Shown: one piece after another, positions 30,073 to 42,062 of the stretch | Layout of the letters: the number at the start of each line of letters is the position of its first letter | Numbering within the stretch: position 1 is the first letter of the stretch | Assembly: GCA_002632265.1 (NCBI GenBank) | Contig: NQOV01000017.1 | Location: forward strand, 1-48,773 | Length of the DNA stretch: 48,773 bases | Direction of reading: 5' to 3' | DNA from: Rhodospirillaceae bacterium MC! | GTDB taxonomy: Bacteria > Pseudomonadota > Alphaproteobacteria > MC1 | Notes under the pieces: generated by a model | The model's database searches: none | What the model was told of the DNA's origin: nothing | The model's input: only the letters and a program-made list of their open reading frames with translations | Made by a program: the position numbers and the translations under genes

Positions 30073-31605
30073 TTAATTTTCTAATCTGCCGATGATAAAG
30101 ATTGAATTCCACTTTATGGTTATTGGCTGGTTAAATTCTTTGAGTAGGGTTTTTAGTTCGCTGTTGCTTTTGCTATCGTTTTTGTTGTGGTTTGCTCCTG
30201 TGTTGATCATGGTTTTTAAGAGGGATTTTAAGTTGGCGTACTCGAAATAGCAATTGTCTTCATAAATATCTATGCCGTGGTTTTGGAAATAGCTTAAAGG
30301 GGGGTATGGGTTGAAGATCTTAGTAAAATTATGCTCCTTAATATAGCTATTTATATTCTCAAAGGATTGATCGCCAAGTAGGGATATGGCGAAAATTCCT
30401 TGGGGTTTTAATTTGGCTTGCCAGAGCTTTAAAACTTGAATGGGATCTTCAAACCATTGGAATAACATGGATGAACAAATGAGATCTAAGGAATTGTTGG
30501 CGAATTTATCCATGTCTGTTAGGGCGTTGATTTGGTCGAATCTTACGTGGGTTTCTTTGTTGTTATTTACTAATCTTGTTTGATTGTGTTTTAACATGTT
30601 AAAGGATAGATCTGTGGAAAGTACATGAGCATGGGGAAAGTTTTCCACTAGCTGATCGGTAAACAAACCTGTACCACATCCTAGTTCTAGAATTTGGATT
30701 GGTGTGCTTTCTTCTTCTGTATTTTCTTTTGTATTTTTTTCTGTGTAAGAATTGAGATAGTGGATTAGTTTATTGCTAATTAGTTTTTGGATTTGGGCGT
30801 TGTTGTTATATGATATTGCTTTATTATTGAAATTTTCCACTATGCCATTGGAAATACTGTGAATAATTTTAGTAACATCATGGGCAAGATCCAAACTTAA
30901 GGTATGGGGGATGAAGTGTTCGCCTGTGGGATAGTTTATGTTGTGAATGTTGGGGTTATTGTTTGTATCTGCCTGCATGTGGGAATTAATTAAGGGATCT
31001 GATCCGCCAGTTATGTTATAGATATTCTTTTTGTTGAGCATGTGTCGGCAATCGAGATTTTGCAGATCTTCCAAGCCTGTTAAGAGTTCCTTAGGATCAA
31101 GAGTGTTCATATAATCCCTATTGCTGATATGTTCTAATATATGATTGCTAGCGAGAAAATCATGTAAGACGCTTTGTGGATCTTGGGAAAACTTTTTTAT
31201 CATGCGTGAGAGAATTTTTCCGTTAATGCCGTGGGGAAAATCTGCGGATTTTGTGAATTTTGCAAAGCTATTGACCATAATAATCACATCAGCCATGGCA
31301 ATGATATTTGTTGATAAGGTTTTTAATCCGCCTAAACTATGGCCGATGATAATTAGTTTGTCTTTAGGTTTTTTGCTGTGTTTTGTAGTATGTTTTGTAG
31401 TGTGTTTGTTATAGTTTTCTTTGAATGTGTTTATGCTATCCTTTGCGTTATCGTAGGGCGATGCGTAATGGATTTGTAGATTGAGATTGTTATCATTATC
31501 ATTATCATTCTGGCTTTGAGCGTTGATAGTTTGTAGCTCATGGGCGAATGGTTGCCACATTTCATGGGATAAACCCCAACCGTGAATTAGTAATAAGTGG
31601 ATCAT
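30073..31605 (-). CDS. BioH-BioC fusion: pimeloyl-ACP methyl ester esterase plus malonyl-ACP methyltransferase
   Basis: A 510-residue two-domain protein. Residues 1-255 are an alpha/beta hydrolase like BioH: LLLIHGWGLSHEMW, nucleophile S90 in GHSLGG, D203 in GGSDPLI and H230 in GEHFIP, a full triad. Residues about 262-510 are a SAM methyltransferase like BioC: ILELGCGTGLFTDQL near 305, STDLSFNML, and SSMLFQWFEDP. BioC masks malonyl-ACP as a methyl ester so fatty acid synthesis can extend it; BioH removes the methyl at pimeloyl length. One chain holds both start and stop of pimelate synthesis. Low-complexity inserts (NDNDNDNN, HTTKHTTKHSKK) lie in the hydrolase part. The gene starts 2 bases after bioF ends. 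Confidence 0.85.
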   Translation of the reverse strand: MIHLLLIHGWGLSHEMWQPFAHELQTINAQSQNDNDNDNNLNLQIHYASPYDNAKDSINTFKENYNKHTTKHTTKHSKKPKDKLIIIGHSLGGLKTLSTNIIAMADVIIMVNSFAKFTKSADFPHGINGKILSRMIKKFSQDPQSVLHDFLASNHILEHISNRDYMNTLDPKELLTGLEDLQNLDCRHMLNKKNIYNITGGSDPLINSHMQADTNNNPNIHNINYPTGEHFIPHTLSLDLAHDVTKIIHSISNGIVENFNNKAISYNNNAQIQKLISNKLIHYLNSYTEKNTKENTEEESTPIQILELGCGTGLFTDQLVENFPHAHVLSTDLSFNMLKHNQTRLVNNNKETHVRFDQINALTDMDKFANNSLDLICSSMLFQWFEDPIQVLKLWQAKLKPQGIFAISLLGDQSFENINSYIKEHNFTKIFNPYPPLSYFQNHGIDIYEDNCYFEYANLKSLLKTMINTGANHNKNDSKSNSELKTLLKEFNQPITIKWNSIFIIGRLEN

Positions 31606-37167: not shown

Positions 37168-37272
37168 ATTAGCAGTTCCCACATCCCTTTATTAACAAAG
37201 CTCTTTTATTTTATCTGATTGTATGTTATAAAGATACTGCCTTTTTTAAGGCTGTAAGGAGGTGGCTGAACT

Positions 37273-37341
37273 GTGAAGTACATCTTTTACGTGTTATTAA
37301 TATGTTTTTTAATGTTATTTTTTATAAATAACGCATATTAA
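37273..37341 (+). CDS. Small hydrophobic peptide, putative type I toxin, copy 1
   Basis: A 22-residue frame with GTG start: MKYIFYVLLI, a central CFLMLFF and the end INNAY. One basic residue at the start, about 16 hydrophobic residues and a polar end fit a single membrane span, as in Fst, Ldr and Ibs toxins. AAGGAGG (37256-37262) ends 10 bases before GTG, and a stop lies in frame just upstream, so no longer start is possible. The mRNA probably starts near 37238 after TATAAA (37227-37232) and would begin with the hairpin GCCTT (37239-37243)/AAGGC (37248-37252). The promoter has an extended -10 but a weak -35. Toxicity is an inference from design. Confidence 0.8.
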   Translation: MKYIFYVLLICFLMLFFINNAY

Positions 37342-37345
37342 TAAT

Positions 37346-37432
37346 CAAAAACCCGTTGACTTTTGTAGCACTTAGTCAGCGGGTTTTTTATAATTAGGTT
37401 ACTTGAATTGTGAAGTCTTATGTAATCTTTTC
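37346..37432 (-). ncRNA. Antisense RNA, putative antitoxin, copy 1
   Basis: Predicted RNA of about 87 bases from the minus-strand promoter at 37440-37468, ending at the shared terminator. Its 5' part contains the complement of GAATTGTGAAGT (37405-37416) and TCTTTT. The same motifs occur as GAACTGTGAAGT (37268-37279) and TCTTTT around the peptide start codon, so the RNA can pair with the peptide start region as well as with the terminator loop. This is the direct-repeat arrangement of par/Fst loci. Ends are estimates. Confidence 0.75.
37347..37389. terminator. Bidirectional terminator, copy 1
   Basis: AAAACCCGTTGACT pairs with AGTCAGCGGGTTTT (one G-U), with T6 on the plus side and T5 on the minus side. 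It ends both the peptide mRNA and the facing antisense RNA. The loop sequence differs from those of the other copies. Confidence 0.9.
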
Positions 37433-37439
37433 AATTATT

Positions 37440-37468
37440 ATTATAAGATATTCCTAGCTAAAAGTCAA
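37440..37468 (-). promoter_or_regulatory. Antisense promoter, copy 1
   Basis: On the minus strand TTGACT (37468-37463) and TATAAT (37445-37440) are exactly 17 bases apart. It is stronger than the peptide promoter, as expected for an antitoxin RNA in excess. Confidence 0.88.
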
Positions 37469-37585
37469 GCAAAAAATATATAAATTTTATAATGGTACTC
37501 TATCTTAATAAAACTCTTTTATTTTATCTGATTGTGTGCTATAAAGATACTGCCTTTTTTAAGGCTGTAAGGAGGTGTCTGAACT

Positions 37586-37654
37586 GTGAAGTACATCTTT
37601 TACGTGTTATTAATATGTTTTTTAATGTTATTTTTTATAAATAACGCATATTAA
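37586..37654 (+). CDS. Small hydrophobic peptide, putative type I toxin, copy 2
   Basis: Same 22-residue sequence as copy 1, with identical DNA in the frame. The -10 is TATAAA at 37540-37545 with extended TG, and the GCCTT/AAGGC 5' hairpin and AAGGAGG are kept. The base change between SD and start (GTGTCT for GTGGCT) is outside the frame. Confidence 0.8.
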   Translation: MKYIFYVLLICFLMLFFINNAY

Positions 37655-37658
37655 TAAT

Positions 37659-37744
37659 CAAAAACCCGTTGACTACATTCCACAAAGGTCAACGGGTTTT
37701 TATAATTAGGTTACTTAAATTGTGAAGTCTTATGTAATCTTTTC
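37659..37744 (-). ncRNA. Antisense RNA, putative antitoxin, copy 2
   Basis: Predicted from the promoter at 37752-37780 to the shared terminator. The repeat motif on the plus strand is AAATTGTGAAGT here. Ends are estimates. Confidence 0.75.
37660..37701. terminator. Bidirectional terminator, copy 2
   Basis: AAAACCCGTTGAC pairs with GTCAACGGGTTTT. The G-U pair of copy 1 is here T-A. The loop is unrelated in sequence to copies 1, 3 and 4. Confidence 0.9.
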
Positions 37745-37751
37745 AATTATT

Positions 37752-37780
37752 ATTATAAGATATTATTATCCAAAAGTCAA
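37752..37780 (-). promoter_or_regulatory. Antisense promoter, copy 2
   Basis: TTGACT (37780-37775) and TATAAT (37757-37752) on the minus strand, 17-base spacer. The spacer has several base changes against the other copies while both boxes are unchanged. Confidence 0.88.
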
Positions 37781-37897
37781 GCAAAAAATATATAAATTTT
37801 ATAATGACACTCTATCCTAATAAAACTCTTTTATTTTATCTGATTGTGTGCTATAAAGATACTGCCTTTTTTAAGGCTGTAAGGAGGTGGCTGAACT

Positions 37898-37966
37898 GTG
37901 AAGTACATCTTTTACGTGTTATTAATATGTTTTTTAATGTTATTTTTTATAAATAACGCATATTAA
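37898..37966 (+). CDS. Small hydrophobic peptide, putative type I toxin, copy 3
   Basis: Identical 22-residue peptide. TATAAA is at 37852-37857; the 5' hairpin, AAGGAGG and GTG start are kept as in copy 1. Confidence 0.8.
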   Translation: MKYIFYVLLICFLMLFFINNAY

Positions 37967-37970
37967 TAAT

Positions 37971-38057
37971 CAAAAACCCATTGACTGATCTCAACAAAAG
38001 TCAATGGGTTTTTTATAATTAGGTTACTTGAATTGTGAAGTCTTATGTAATCTTTTC
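37971..38057 (-). ncRNA. Antisense RNA, putative antitoxin, copy 3
   Basis: Predicted from the promoter at 38065-38093 to the shared terminator; carries the complement of GAATTGTGAAGT and TCTTTT. Ends are estimates. Confidence 0.75.
37972..38014. terminator. Bidirectional terminator, copy 3
   Basis: AAAACCCATTGACT pairs with AGTCAATGGGTTTT. Against copies 1 and 2 a G-C pair has become A-T on both sides, a compensatory change. The loop is again different. Confidence 0.9.
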
Positions 38058-38064
38058 AATTATT

Positions 38065-38093
38065 ATTATAAGATATTCCTAGCTAAAAGTCAA
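38065..38093 (-). promoter_or_regulatory. Antisense promoter, copy 3
   Basis: TTGACT (38093-38088) and TATAAT (38070-38065) on the minus strand, 17-base spacer. Confidence 0.88.
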
Positions 38094-38210
38094 GCAAAAA
38101 ATATATAAATTTTATAATGACGCTCTATCCTAATAAAACTCTTTTATTTTATCTGATTGTATGCTATAAAGATACTGCCTTTTTTAAGGCTGTAAGGAGG
38201 TGTCTGAACT

Positions 38211-38279
38211 GTGAAGTACATCTTTTATGTGTTATTAATATGTTTTTTAATGTTATTTTTTATAAATAACGCATATTAA
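38211..38279 (+). CDS. Small hydrophobic peptide, putative type I toxin, copy 4
   Basis: Same 22-residue peptide. The only base change in the frame among all four copies is here: TAC to TAT at Tyr6, which is silent. This suggests selection on the peptide. TATAAA is at 38165-38170; 5' hairpin and AAGGAGG kept. Confidence 0.8.
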   Translation: MKYIFYVLLICFLMLFFINNAY

Positions 38280-38283
38280 TAAT

Positions 38284-38368
38284 CAAAACCCATTGACTCA
38301 AATCCAATAAAGTCAATGGGTTTTTATAATTAGGTTACTTAAATTGTGAAGTCTTATGTAATCTTTTC
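38284..38368 (-). ncRNA. Antisense RNA, putative antitoxin, copy 4
   Basis: Predicted from the promoter at 38376-38404 to the shared terminator; the plus-strand repeat motif is AAATTGTGAAGT. Ends are estimates. Confidence 0.75.
38285..38325. terminator. Bidirectional terminator, copy 4
   Basis: AAAACCCATTGACT and AGTCAATGGGTTTT, the same A-T version of the stem as copy 3 with yet another loop. Confidence 0.9.
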
Positions 38369-38375
38369 AATTATT

Positions 38376-38404
38376 ATTATAAGATATTCCTAGCTAAAAG
38401 TCAA
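38376..38404 (-). promoter_or_regulatory. Antisense promoter, copy 4
   Basis: TTGACT (38404-38399) and TATAAT (38381-38376) on the minus strand, 17-base spacer. The array similarity ends about 15 bases further right. Confidence 0.88.
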
Positions 38405-38552
38405 GCAAAAAATATCTAAATTTCACACATTTTTATTTTTACTATTTAAGGGGTAGTGATTGGTGTTAGATAATATCCTAGTTTATAATCATTTTTTGCT
38501 TGAGAATTTATTAGATAGGGAAAAGTGGGATAAGTCAAAAAATACTTATCTA

Positions 38553-38581
38553 TTGACAAGGGAGAAAATTTTTGCTATTAT
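38553..38581 (+). promoter_or_regulatory. Promoter of dapA leader
   Basis: TTGACA (38553-38558) and TATTAT (38576-38581), 17-base spacer. It implies a 190-base leader before dapA, long enough for an attenuator. Confidence 0.85.
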
Positions 38582-38626
38582 GTAAAATGTATTAATTAGT
38601 TTAATTAGTTAATTAGGGAATTTATA

Positions 38627-38677
38627 ATGTATTATAATAAGTTAAACATAAAGTATAAGCAAGCGATTAAAAAATAA
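38627..38677 (+). CDS. Lysine-rich leader peptide of dapA (candidate)
   Basis: A 16-residue frame, MYYNKLNIKYKQAIKK, with AGGGA seven bases before its ATG. Five residues are lysine, including two Lys codons right before the stop. It lies between the dapA promoter and a terminator-like hairpin. This is the layout of ribosome-controlled attenuators (his, trp, leu leaders), with the codons of the end product lysine. AT-rich genomes use many Lys codons, so chance is not excluded. Confidence 0.6.
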   Translation: MYYNKLNIKYKQAIKK

Positions 38678-38686
38678 TTGTTTTAT

Positions 38687-38749
38687 ATTTTGGTGTTTTA
38701 AGTAATTTACAAGTTGAATGCAAATCCAAAATGAGGGTTTGCCTTTTTT
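38687..38749 (+). promoter_or_regulatory. Candidate transcription attenuator before dapA
   Basis: GCAAATCC (38720-38727) and GGGTTTGC (38735-38742) form a terminator stem followed by CTTTTTT. An alternative pairing exists: ATTTTGG (38687-38693) matches CCAAAAT (38726-38732), which would break the terminator. AAAATA at the leader stop (38671-38676) can pair with TATTTT (38686-38691) and so block that alternative. A ribosome stalled at the two last Lys codons would cover AAAATA and favour read-through. Confidence 0.6.
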
Positions 38750-38778
38750 GTAATTAAAAAACTTTAAGGAGATTAAAA

Positions 38779-39651
38779 ATGTTTGAAGGTGTATATGTTG
38801 CAGCAGCAACCCCCTTTACTCATAATGAGTTAGATGAAAAAGCTTTTAGAGAACTTATTCGTTTTCTAATAAACGGTGGTGTTTCTGGTATTGTGCCATG
38901 TGGAACAACAGGAGAAAGCCCCACCTTAAGCCATAAGGAACACAATAGAGTTATCGAAATTGCCGTGGATGAATGTAAAGGTAAAGTTAAAGTTTTAGCA
39001 GGTACAGGCTCAAACAGTACCGCTGAAGCCGTAAGCCTTTCCCAACATGCAGAGCAAACAGGAGTAGACGGAGTTTTACTAACAACGCCTTACTACAATA
39101 AGCCCACACAAGAGGGTTTATATGAACACTATAAGACCATTGCCGAATCAATTAAAATCCCAGTGATGTTATATAATGTACCATCTCGTGCAAGTGTAGG
39201 GATTTCTGTTGAAACGATAGTCCGCTTATTTGATGTGAAAAACATAGTTGCAATAAAAGAAGCCACCGCCGATTTAAACCGCACATCGCAGATCCTACAA
39301 GGTACTAAGCATAAAATGGAAGTTCTATCAGGAGATGACGCTACCAACTTACCCCTAATGGCTCTTGGTGGAGTCGGCATGGTTTCGGTTATCGCCAACA
39401 TTGCCCCTAAGTTGTGTTCTGATATGGTAAAAGCCATGAACAATAACGATCTCAAACAGGCCCAAGAGATTCATTATAAGTTACTTGATCTAAGTAATTC
39501 CCTATTTACTGAAACAAATCCGATTCCTGTCAAATACGCCCTAACGAAAATGGGCATATTTCAAAACGAACTTCGCCTACCCCTAGTTCCCCTAAGCAAG
39601 CAAGCTCAACCCATACTTGATCATGACCTAAAATCCCTAGGATTAATATAA
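38779..39651 (+). CDS. dapA: 4-hydroxy-tetrahydrodipicolinate synthase DapA
   Basis: A 290-residue class I aldolase-type enzyme. CGTTGESPTL is near residue 41, the Tyr region LLTTPYYNKPT near 100, LYNVPSR near 131, and the Schiff-base lysine K160 is in VAIKEAT. It condenses pyruvate with aspartate semialdehyde, the first step of the DAP/lysine branch. SD AAGGAG lies before the ATG. It is followed by family A repeats, then dapB and dapL on the same strand. A leader with lysine codons and a hairpin precedes it. Confidence 0.97.
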   Translation: MFEGVYVAAATPFTHNELDEKAFRELIRFLINGGVSGIVPCGTTGESPTLSHKEHNRVIEIAVDECKGKVKVLAGTGSNSTAEAVSLSQHAEQTGVDGVLLTTPYYNKPTQEGLYEHYKTIAESIKIPVMLYNVPSRASVGISVETIVRLFDVKNIVAIKEATADLNRTSQILQGTKHKMEVLSGDDATNLPLMALGGVGMVSVIANIAPKLCSDMVKAMNNNDLKQAQEIHYKLLDLSNSLFTETNPIPVKYALTKMGIFQNELRLPLVPLSKQAQPILDHDLKSLGLI

Positions 39652-39752
39652 GATTGTGATAAATGAGCTAATCTGCACCTTATCTTAGGGCTTATGTAGA
39701 CGTGAGTACACGTCGCCCTAATTTAAGGCACATCTTAGCTCATTTCTCCCAA
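39652..39752. repeat. Dispersed palindromic repeat, family A
   Basis: AAATGAGCTAATCTGCACC pairs with the ACATCTTAGCTCATTT side, around the core GACGTG-AGTA-CACGTC. The core is the exact reverse complement of that in the 9825 tandem array. Confidence 0.85.
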
Positions 39753-39765
39753 TCTTAAGGGGGTG

Positions 39766-39918
39766 CGGATCGTGATAAGTGGGTTAATCTGCACCTTATC
39801 TTAGGGCTTATGTAGACGTGAGTACACGTCGCACATCTTAGCTCATTTCTCCCAATCCTGCGGATCGTGATAAGTGGGCTAATCTTAAGGGGTTGCTTAA
39901 GGCTTGCGGATTGTGATA
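39766..39918. repeat. Second family A copy plus a truncated third, before dapB
   Basis: GGATCGTGATAAGTGGGTTA starts a second copy with the same core but a deleted inner right arm (CGTCGCACATCTTAG). A third start, GGATCGTGATAAGTGGGCTA, follows at 39861 and breaks off. Together with the copy at 39652 this looks like an early tandem expansion. The gap dapA-dapB (318 bases) holds nothing else. Confidence 0.8.
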
Positions 39919-39969
39919 AATGATACTAATTTCTATAACTTTATAATTTACGAAAGGTAAAACAAGATT

Positions 39970-40755
39970 ATGACTATTAAGATTGGCGTAGTAGGTGCGA
40001 AAGGTCGTATGGGGGCGAATATCATTGATCTTATTTTAGAAGATGATAAATTAGAGCTATCTGCGGCCATAGAATATGAAGGCTCGCCACATATGGGCGA
40101 AATTATCCATGATACTAATATAACCATTAGCAATTCCATTGCTGATGTAGCTAAGAATACCGATGTATTCATTGATTTTACCGTATATGACGCCCTAAAG
40201 AATAACATCAGTATTTACAAAACAGCTAATACTCCTGTGGTTATCGGCACTACGGGATTGGAAGAATCGTTCATTGCTAAAATGAAAGACCAGCTTAAAC
40301 ATATACCAGTATTATTATCAACGAATACTAGCATAGGAGTAAATGTTACTATCAATCTTTTAGTGCAAGCTACTAAAATGTTAAATGAAAGCTATGATAT
40401 TGAAATCATAGAATATCATCACAACAAAAAGCTAGACGCTCCAAGCGGTACAGCCATAACCATGGCCAAAGAAATATGCCAAGCGTCCGAGCGTCATAAT
40501 TTTACCGAAGATTGCGTATATGAAAGATCATCCAACAACAATCAACGGAGAAAAAACGAAATTGGCTTGCAATCTGTGCGTGGTGGGAATATAATAGGAG
40601 ATCATAAGATCATGTTTATCGGCAAAAATGACACTATTACCATAAGCCACCATGCCCAAAGTAGAGAACTATTCGCCCAAGGAGCTATCCACATCGCCCA
40701 ATGGCTAGCAGATAAACAAGCAGGATATTACACCATGAAAGACATCTTTTCATAA
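39970..40755 (+). CDS. dapB: 4-hydroxy-tetrahydrodipicolinate reductase DapB
   Basis: A 261-residue reductase. The nucleotide motif VVGAKGRMGANI is at residues 8-19, IDFTVYDA is near 68, TNTSIGVN near 117, and the signature EIIEYHHNKKLDAPSGTA near 142-159. It reduces the DapA product to tetrahydrodipicolinate with NAD(P)H. It follows dapA after the repeat block. dapL follows 89 bases later, so the three steps from semialdehyde to LL-DAP are grouped. Confidence 0.96.
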   Translation: MTIKIGVVGAKGRMGANIIDLILEDDKLELSAAIEYEGSPHMGEIIHDTNITISNSIADVAKNTDVFIDFTVYDALKNNISIYKTANTPVVIGTTGLEESFIAKMKDQLKHIPVLLSTNTSIGVNVTINLLVQATKMLNESYDIEIIEYHHNKKLDAPSGTAITMAKEICQASERHNFTEDCVYERSSNNNQRRKNEIGLQSVRGGNIIGDHKIMFIGKNDTITISHHAQSRELFAQGAIHIAQWLADKQAGYYTMKDIFS

Positions 40756-40844: not shown

Positions 40845-42062
40845 ATGATACAAGAACTTTTTTCAGATCGCATAGGCGGTAATAAATTCGGAACAGATAC
40901 TAACATTTATAAATTCGAAAAGATCAAAATTGCTAAACGAGAAGCGATTAGCAAAAATCCCAACACACCATTAATCGATCTTGGAGTAGGCGAACCTGAT
41001 AGCCGTGCCGATGATCAATTAATCGACGTACTAAACGCCCAAGCGAGAAAATCGGAAAATAGATACTATTCAGATAACGGTATCGACGATCTTAAAGGCA
41101 CAATCAAAGACTACATGGCGAGAAAATTCGATGTTAGCCTTTCAACCGATCAAATAAATCACGTTATCGGTTCTAAAACAGCCTTGGCGATGTTGCCCCT
41201 TGCCTTTATTAATCTTGGTGATGTGGCTATTCTAACCATTCCAGGCTATCCTGTATTGGGTACGCATACTAAATATTTAGGCGGTAGTGTTTACAACATC
41301 GAACTAAAGGAAGAAAATAATTTCTTACCTGATTTATCTTCGATCCCTGCTGATATTTGTAAAAAAGCTAAATTTTTATATTTAAACTATCCGAACAATC
41401 CCACAGGTGCATTAGCTCCAGTTGAATTCTTCAAAGAGGCCATCGCTTTTGCTAAAAAGCATAGTATTATCATCGTCCACGACGCCGCATATATTGAACT
41501 TACTTACGATAAAAAACAACCGTCTATCTTAAGCATTGATGGAGCTATGGATGTTGCTATAGAAATTCATTCCTTTTCAAAATCATTTAATATGACAGGG
41601 TGGAGACTAGGTTGGATCTGCGGTAATACCAAAGTGGTTAATGCTTTCAAAGTGGTAAAAGATAATTCCGACAGCGGAGCATTTATTCCCATTCAGCTCG
41701 CAGGTAGTTACGGCTTGAAAAATTCCGAAGAGCTAATTAAACCAACACGAGAAAAATACAAACGCAGATTAACAAGAATCACCGCCATTTTAAATGATCT
41801 CGGCTTTAATGTGAAACAACCAGAAGGCACTTTTTATCTATATTTCAAATCGCCAAAAGGTACTCAATCGGGCATGAAATTCAACACTGCCGAAGATTTC
41901 AGCCAATATCTAATTAAAGAAAAACTAATCTCATCAGTGCCATGGGACGACGTTGGCAACTATCTTCGCTTTACTTGTTGTTTCGAGGCCACTCTAGAAC
42001 AAGAAGAAGAAATTTTGTCTCAACTGGAAAACCGCCTAAAATCAGAAACATACGTTTTTTAA
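40845..42062 (+). CDS. dapL: LL-diaminopimelate aminotransferase (DapL type)
   Basis: A 405-residue class I/II aminotransferase. The start FSDRIGGNKFGTDTNIYKFEKIKIAKR and LGVGEPDSRAD are typical of LL-DAP aminotransferases. LNYPNNPTGALA is near residue 180, HDAAY near 212 and the PLP lysine K246 is in HSFSKSFNMTGWRLGW. DapL turns tetrahydrodipicolinate to LL-DAP in one step with glutamate, bypassing DapD/C/E. Location after dapA-dapB supports this over a general aspartate aminotransferase. A strong terminator follows. Confidence 0.88.
   Translation: MIQELFSDRIGGNKFGTDTNIYKFEKIKIAKREAISKNPNTPLIDLGVGEPDSRADDQLIDVLNAQARKSENRYYSDNGIDDLKGTIKDYMARKFDVSLSTDQINHVIGSKTALAMLPLAFINLGDVAILTIPGYPVLGTHTKYLGGSVYNIELKEENNFLPDLSSIPADICKKAKFLYLNYPNNPTGALAPVEFFKEAIAFAKKHSIIIVHDAAYIELTYDKKQPSILSIDGAMDVAIEIHSFSKSFNMTGWRLGWICGNTKVVNAFKVVKDNSDSGAFIPIQLAGSYGLKNSEELIKPTREKYKRRLTRITAILNDLGFNVKQPEGTFYLYFKSPKGTQSGMKFNTAEDFSQYLIKEKLISSVPWDDVGNYLRFTCCFEATLEQEEEILSQLENRLKSETYVF

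Follow-up and report, generated by a model that had tools for sequence, protein, structure and literature searches.

Which signal governs dapA, the first gene of a co-directional dapA, dapB and dapL set, in an alphaproteobacterium of the Rhodospirillaceae without a detectable L-box? The window, that is, the whole stretch of DNA analysed here (contig C12, 48,773 nt), belongs to a genome of 2.05 Mb with 35.5% GC and 95.5% completeness, and genome-wide scans covered 96% of it, as stretches. All three genes, named through curated models, lie 3' of a candidate attenuator (Table 1). Our analysis suggests that a ribosome-mediated attenuator tuned to lysyl-tRNA probably controls dapA, and with it probably dapB and dapL. 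The dapA-dapB intergenic region (39652-39969) consists of a dispersed, partly tandem-duplicated repeat that gave ~240 blastn hits across this genome and may influence the coupling of dapB to dapA.

Promoter, leader frame and competing helices upstream of dapA

The initial annotation had described a consensus promoter, a 16-codon frame with a Shine-Dalgarno sequence and five Lys codons, two of them just before the stop, and a terminator with a T run ahead of dapA. All of these elements were recovered, the Shine-Dalgarno sequence being weak. The sigma-70-type promoter carries a TG before its -10 box, and transcription probably starts near 38588. The five Lys codons of the frame comprise three AAG and two AAA, and AAA AAA immediately precedes TAA; the frame also contains three Tyr codons and is without a long run of Lys codons. 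The terminator stem, GCAAATCC/GGGTTTGC at 38720-38742, is followed by CTTTTTTG and reaches -9.8 kcal/mol, with eight of eight pairs perfect, four of them G-C, in DNA of 24% GC, and six T residues after it. The gap of 36 nt between terminator and gene has no room for a second promoter and holds little besides the dapA Shine-Dalgarno sequence. Since the only evident promoter lies 5' of the terminator and there is no space for another, dapA expression must pass the terminator, and dapA thus needs regulated read-through.

Folding of the leader further yielded a protector (1:2) hairpin that was absent from the initial annotation. In this hairpin, leader codons 6-13 are paired with the strand bearing ATTTTGG, so that it overlaps control codons, and it is stronger than in shuffled sequences (p = 0.013). 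In the ribosome-free leader, the A/T part of ATTTTGG is 0.86-1.0 paired in 1:2 and its last two G are 0.44-0.55 paired. The two exclusive pairings proposed at the outset, ATTTTGG/CCAAAAT and the terminator, both exist, and the candidate antiterminator (-6.9 to -7.5 kcal/mol) is mutually exclusive with the terminator, but its pairing is statistically marginal (p = 0.08-0.09 against chance; rank 46 of 102 among the genome's terminators).

Table 1 Features of the dapA locus and of three further leaders in the same genome.
Feature	Position	Strand	Basis or remark
Sigma-70-type promoter, TTGACA-N17-TATTAT, TG before -10	38553..38581	+	11/12 consensus matches
Shine-Dalgarno AGGGA of leader frame, weak	38615..38619	+	Sequence; 7 nt upstream of frame
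Leader peptide frame MYYNKLNIKYKQAIKK*, 16 codons	38627..38677	+	Open reading frame
Protector (1:2) hairpin	38644..38698	+	Folding, -12.6 kcal/mol; best 66-nt window p = 0.013
ATTTTGG, 5' strand of candidate antiterminator (2:3)	38687..38693	+	p = 0.08-0.09
CCAAAAT, 3' strand of candidate antiterminator	38726..38732	+	Overlaps terminator 5' arm and loop
Intrinsic terminator (3:4), 8-bp stem and CTTTTTTG tail	38720..38750	+	Ends 36 nt before dapA
Shine-Dalgarno AAGGAG of dapA	38766..38771	+	Sequence
dapA, 4-hydroxy-tetrahydrodipicolinate synthase	38779..39651	+	TIGR00674, 374 bits, above cut-off
dapB	39970..40755	+	TIGR00036, 247 bits, above cut-off
dapL-type LL-diaminopimelate aminotransferase	40845..42062	+	NF004937, 618 bits, above cut-off
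ilvB leader MLKVFLKIALINLVVLLLINGKLDFCM, L/V/I	C11:316987; L178:16812-16988		Leader-peptide attenuator
leuA leader MFNKNIIIINILLLLLYHKVASTYSHVN, I/L	C11:311271; L178:11077-11272		Leader-peptide attenuator
thrB leader MNKNVFTTTILTTTTTSTALGEMMVWFRHL, nine Thr	C15:45250; L189:5031-5251		Leader-peptide attenuator

The promoter, the frame and the three exclusive helices are read from the sequence; from them we infer translation of the frame, ribosome stalling and a response to lysine. Transcription from the promoter at 38553 would produce a leader RNA of ~160 nt. When Lys-tRNA is abundant, the ribosome would pass the five Lys codons and the 1:2 hairpin would form and hide ATTTTGG, whereupon the 3:4 terminator would end transcription ahead of dapA. 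If Lys-tRNA ran short, stalling of the ribosome would be expected, most tellingly at codons 15-16. The front edge of a ribosome is usually placed at about +15 relative to the P-site codon, so that it would be expected at ~38681 when Lys codon 15 occupies the A site and at ~38684 when codon 16 does. A ribosome stalled there would break the 1:2 hairpin and leave ATTTTGG, which begins at 38687, free to pair with CCAAAAT; the terminator would be pre-empted and dapA transcribed. In this model, the stalling position relative to ATTTTGG is that of classical attenuation. The 96% of the genome examined contains a single tRNA-Lys (UUU).

Leader-peptide attenuators of ilvB, leuA and thrB in the same genome

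A function-blind scan for terminators preceding genes returned ilvB, leuA and thrB, each with a leader peptide frame. Their antiterminators were significant (p <= 0.013 within 85 nt) and took ranks 3, 4 and 7 of 102. Folding from the stop codon onward gave no antiterminator for any of the three, because the antiterminator strand lies inside their frames, and a duplex search recovered them. On the strength of these leaders and their strong antiterminators, leader-peptide attenuation is very probably in use in this organism. The dapA leader shares with them the order of promoter, frame, terminator and gene, at similar spacing, and the distance from its Lys codons to the antiterminator strand is 12 nt, compared with 3-20 nt in ilvB, leuA and thrB. 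Its control codons are fewer, its frame is shorter and its antiterminator is weaker than theirs: the three siblings have frames of 27-30 codons, unmistakable codon runs and strong antiterminators. The antiterminator strand also stands 10 nt after the stop codon in the dapA leader rather than within the frame. Attenuation before dapA is well supported by the only evident promoter lying upstream of a good terminator together with the sibling attenuators, and conditional termination at this site is very likely.

No leaders were seen directly upstream of lysC, lysA, hom, trpE, hisD, pheA or dapL. A trp leader candidate, MGWWWENIS, was dropped because the gene it precedes, at a long distance, encodes an ammonium transporter. 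Immediately before pheA (prephenate dehydratase; C7, about 105920-106000) there is a run of CATAA-type 5-mer repeats. Terminator-like hairpins also sit right where transcription of glnA (L146, 5843-7240:-) and guaB (L194, 597-2075:+) is predicted to start, which leaves no room for a leader frame, and these possibly represent another kind of 5' control.

The probable signal read by the dapA leader

The Lys content of the leader frame (5/15) departs from chance when taken alone (p = 0.008). The share of Lys is 9% in intergenic frames, and of 42 AT-rich dapA upstream regions from other bacteria, about 10 have a Lys-rich frame by chance. The reservation made in the initial annotation, that Lys codons are common at this base composition, was therefore fair, and lysine richness by itself is weak evidence at 24% GC. 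The combination of features is more telling. The scan took in 668 upstream regions of 200 nt or longer from the same genome. Lys-rich ATG frames were present at the matching position in 5 to 10 of them, and dapA was the only gene at which such a frame was followed by a terminator near the gene. This uniqueness stands at p <= 0.01 and p <= 0.02 and in two position windows, with one further gene at p <= 0.05, all under thresholds set after dapA was known. Lysyl-tRNA is the most probable signal, given the sole Lys-rich frame with a terminator, a gene of the lysine pathway, a fitting geometry and the lack of an L-box. Points against it are the weak Shine-Dalgarno sequence, the three Tyr codons, the missing long Lys run, the marginal antiterminator and the absence of a comparable leader directly before lysC and lysA. 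The earlier proposal that charged tRNA-Lys controls read-through into dapA thus keeps its well-supported part, attenuation, and its most probable signal, while the antiterminator on which it drew is marginal.

The alternative that survives best, though unlikely, is that the terminator belongs to a real regulated attenuator that answers to another signal, such as an RNA-binding protein, a small molecule bound by an unrecognised aptamer, or general coupling of translation or transcription, the Lys-rich frame being fortuitous. It would agree with an antiterminator pairing no better than chance, with the abundance of Lys in AT-rich frames noted above, and with terminator-like hairpins before guaB, fbaA and trmFO, which are not amino-acid genes. 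An aptamer, however, would have to be built from a short leader of ~24% GC, which is poor material, and Rfam matches at E <= 5 consisted of one meaningless family only. A fortuitous frame also fits poorly with the restriction of a Lys-rich frame plus terminator to dapA alone, and with the ILV, Leu and Thr siblings, all of which rely on leader peptides.

Less probable again, and in our view improbable, is a leaky constitutive terminator or a chance hairpin in a long AT-rich 5' UTR that cuts dapA expression by a fixed factor, with frame and pairings arising by chance. About 26 genes of this genome, many unconnected with amino acids, have their start within 80 nt of a terminator-like hairpin, and 3.1 terminator-like patterns per 5.5 kb are expected by chance. 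Yet such a hairpin would not readily have a stem of 8 perfect pairs, 4 of them G-C, with six T in DNA of this composition, nor would it be expected inside the sole interval between promoter and dapA, a gene needed for both the cell wall and lysine. Several features also agree with each other, though they are non-independent.

Control by a lysine (L-box) riboswitch is highly improbable: Firmicutes and gamma-proteobacteria usually rely on this element for RNA-level control of lysine genes (PMC3766115), and it would control the same pathway via a terminator, but cmscan with RF00168 gave no match in the window, the leader or the whole genome, while E. coli and B. subtilis positive controls scored, so that it is refuted at Rfam sensitivity. 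The dapA leader differs from an L-box in lacking both a covariance-model match and an aptamer and in possessing a frame; an L-box in the leader, which the initial annotation had named as contrary to its reading, was looked for by covariance model and none was seen. The T-box model was likewise unmatched in the window and leader.

Attenuation by lysyl-tRNA was also considered against other genomes. The genomes searched, 384 others of the class among them, included no second member of the order, and the dapA homologues they gave had <= 52% identity. A terminator and a Lys-rich frame occurred together in none of 144 other dapA upstream regions. As even the closest dapA proteins are ~52% identical, these regions have diverged too far to inform on conservation; their lack of the arrangement points to a lineage-specific device, without confirming or refuting the reading.

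Relation to known systems and further features of the window

Attenuator leader peptides have been reviewed for His, Leu, Thr, Trp, Ile/Val and Phe, with lysine assigned to the L-box (PMC3766115, PMC1262725). The dapA leader resembles the Thr, Leu, ilv, His, Trp and Phe attenuators of proteobacteria in its promoter, its short frame with codons for the product amino acid, its 1:2 and 3:4 helices and its candidate 2:3 helix, as well as in a terminator just 5' of the first biosynthetic gene and in the size of the leader RNA (~140-160 nt in these systems). It departs from the classical attenuators in its amino acid, lysine, and its gene, dapA, in control codons that are scattered apart from a final pair, and in its weak antiterminator. 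It was unmatched by the Rfam models Thr_leader, Leu_leader, His_leader, Trp_leader and Phe_leader.

The nearest published hint of a lysine leader peptide comes from Sinorhizobium meliloti, where a small frame, SEP5, is translated from the 5' UTR of an aspartate dehydrogenase gene and contains six Thr and three Lys codons; a leader peptide was suggested, and a lysine-specific attenuator was not proposed (PMC10117765). SEP5 and the dapA leader both precede genes of the aspartate family, but the SEP5 gene is not dapA. We found no description of a lysine leader peptide or lysine attenuator in the papers searched, the main survey for proteobacteria, that of Vitreschak et al. (2004), being covered through citations of it. 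On this basis, a Lys/dapA attenuator would be a known mechanism applied to a new amino acid.

Overall, we hold with moderate confidence that a lysine-specific leader-peptide attenuator governs dapA via lysyl-tRNA charging in a deep lineage without an L-box. If so, classical attenuation would extend to lysine, for which the sources consulted give only the riboswitch as RNA regulator, and leader peptides would be seen to assume control of a pathway in the absence of its riboswitch. Short leader frames arise easily and repeatedly (PMC2965389), and a lysine version fits that view. Attenuation of ilvB, leuA, thrB and perhaps dapA suggests a general solution of this lineage for aspartate-family and branched-chain amino acids.

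Two other features of the window were observed apart from the leader. Positions 37193-38423 hold 3.9 tandem copies of a 313-bp unit that occurs nowhere else in the examined genome. Each of four copies carries, on the + strand, a strong Shine-Dalgarno sequence (AAGGAGGTG) and the frame of an identical 22-aa hydrophobic peptide, VKYIFYVLLICFLMLFFINNAY, and, on the - strand, a TTGACT-17-TATAAT promoter; the whole resembles type I toxin/antisense-RNA pairs in the style of Ldr/Ibs, repeated in tandem. Within a biotin gene cluster, positions 30073-31605 (-) form a single 510-aa frame that, judged by eye, reads like an alpha/beta hydrolase (BioH-like) fused to a methyltransferase (BioC-like).
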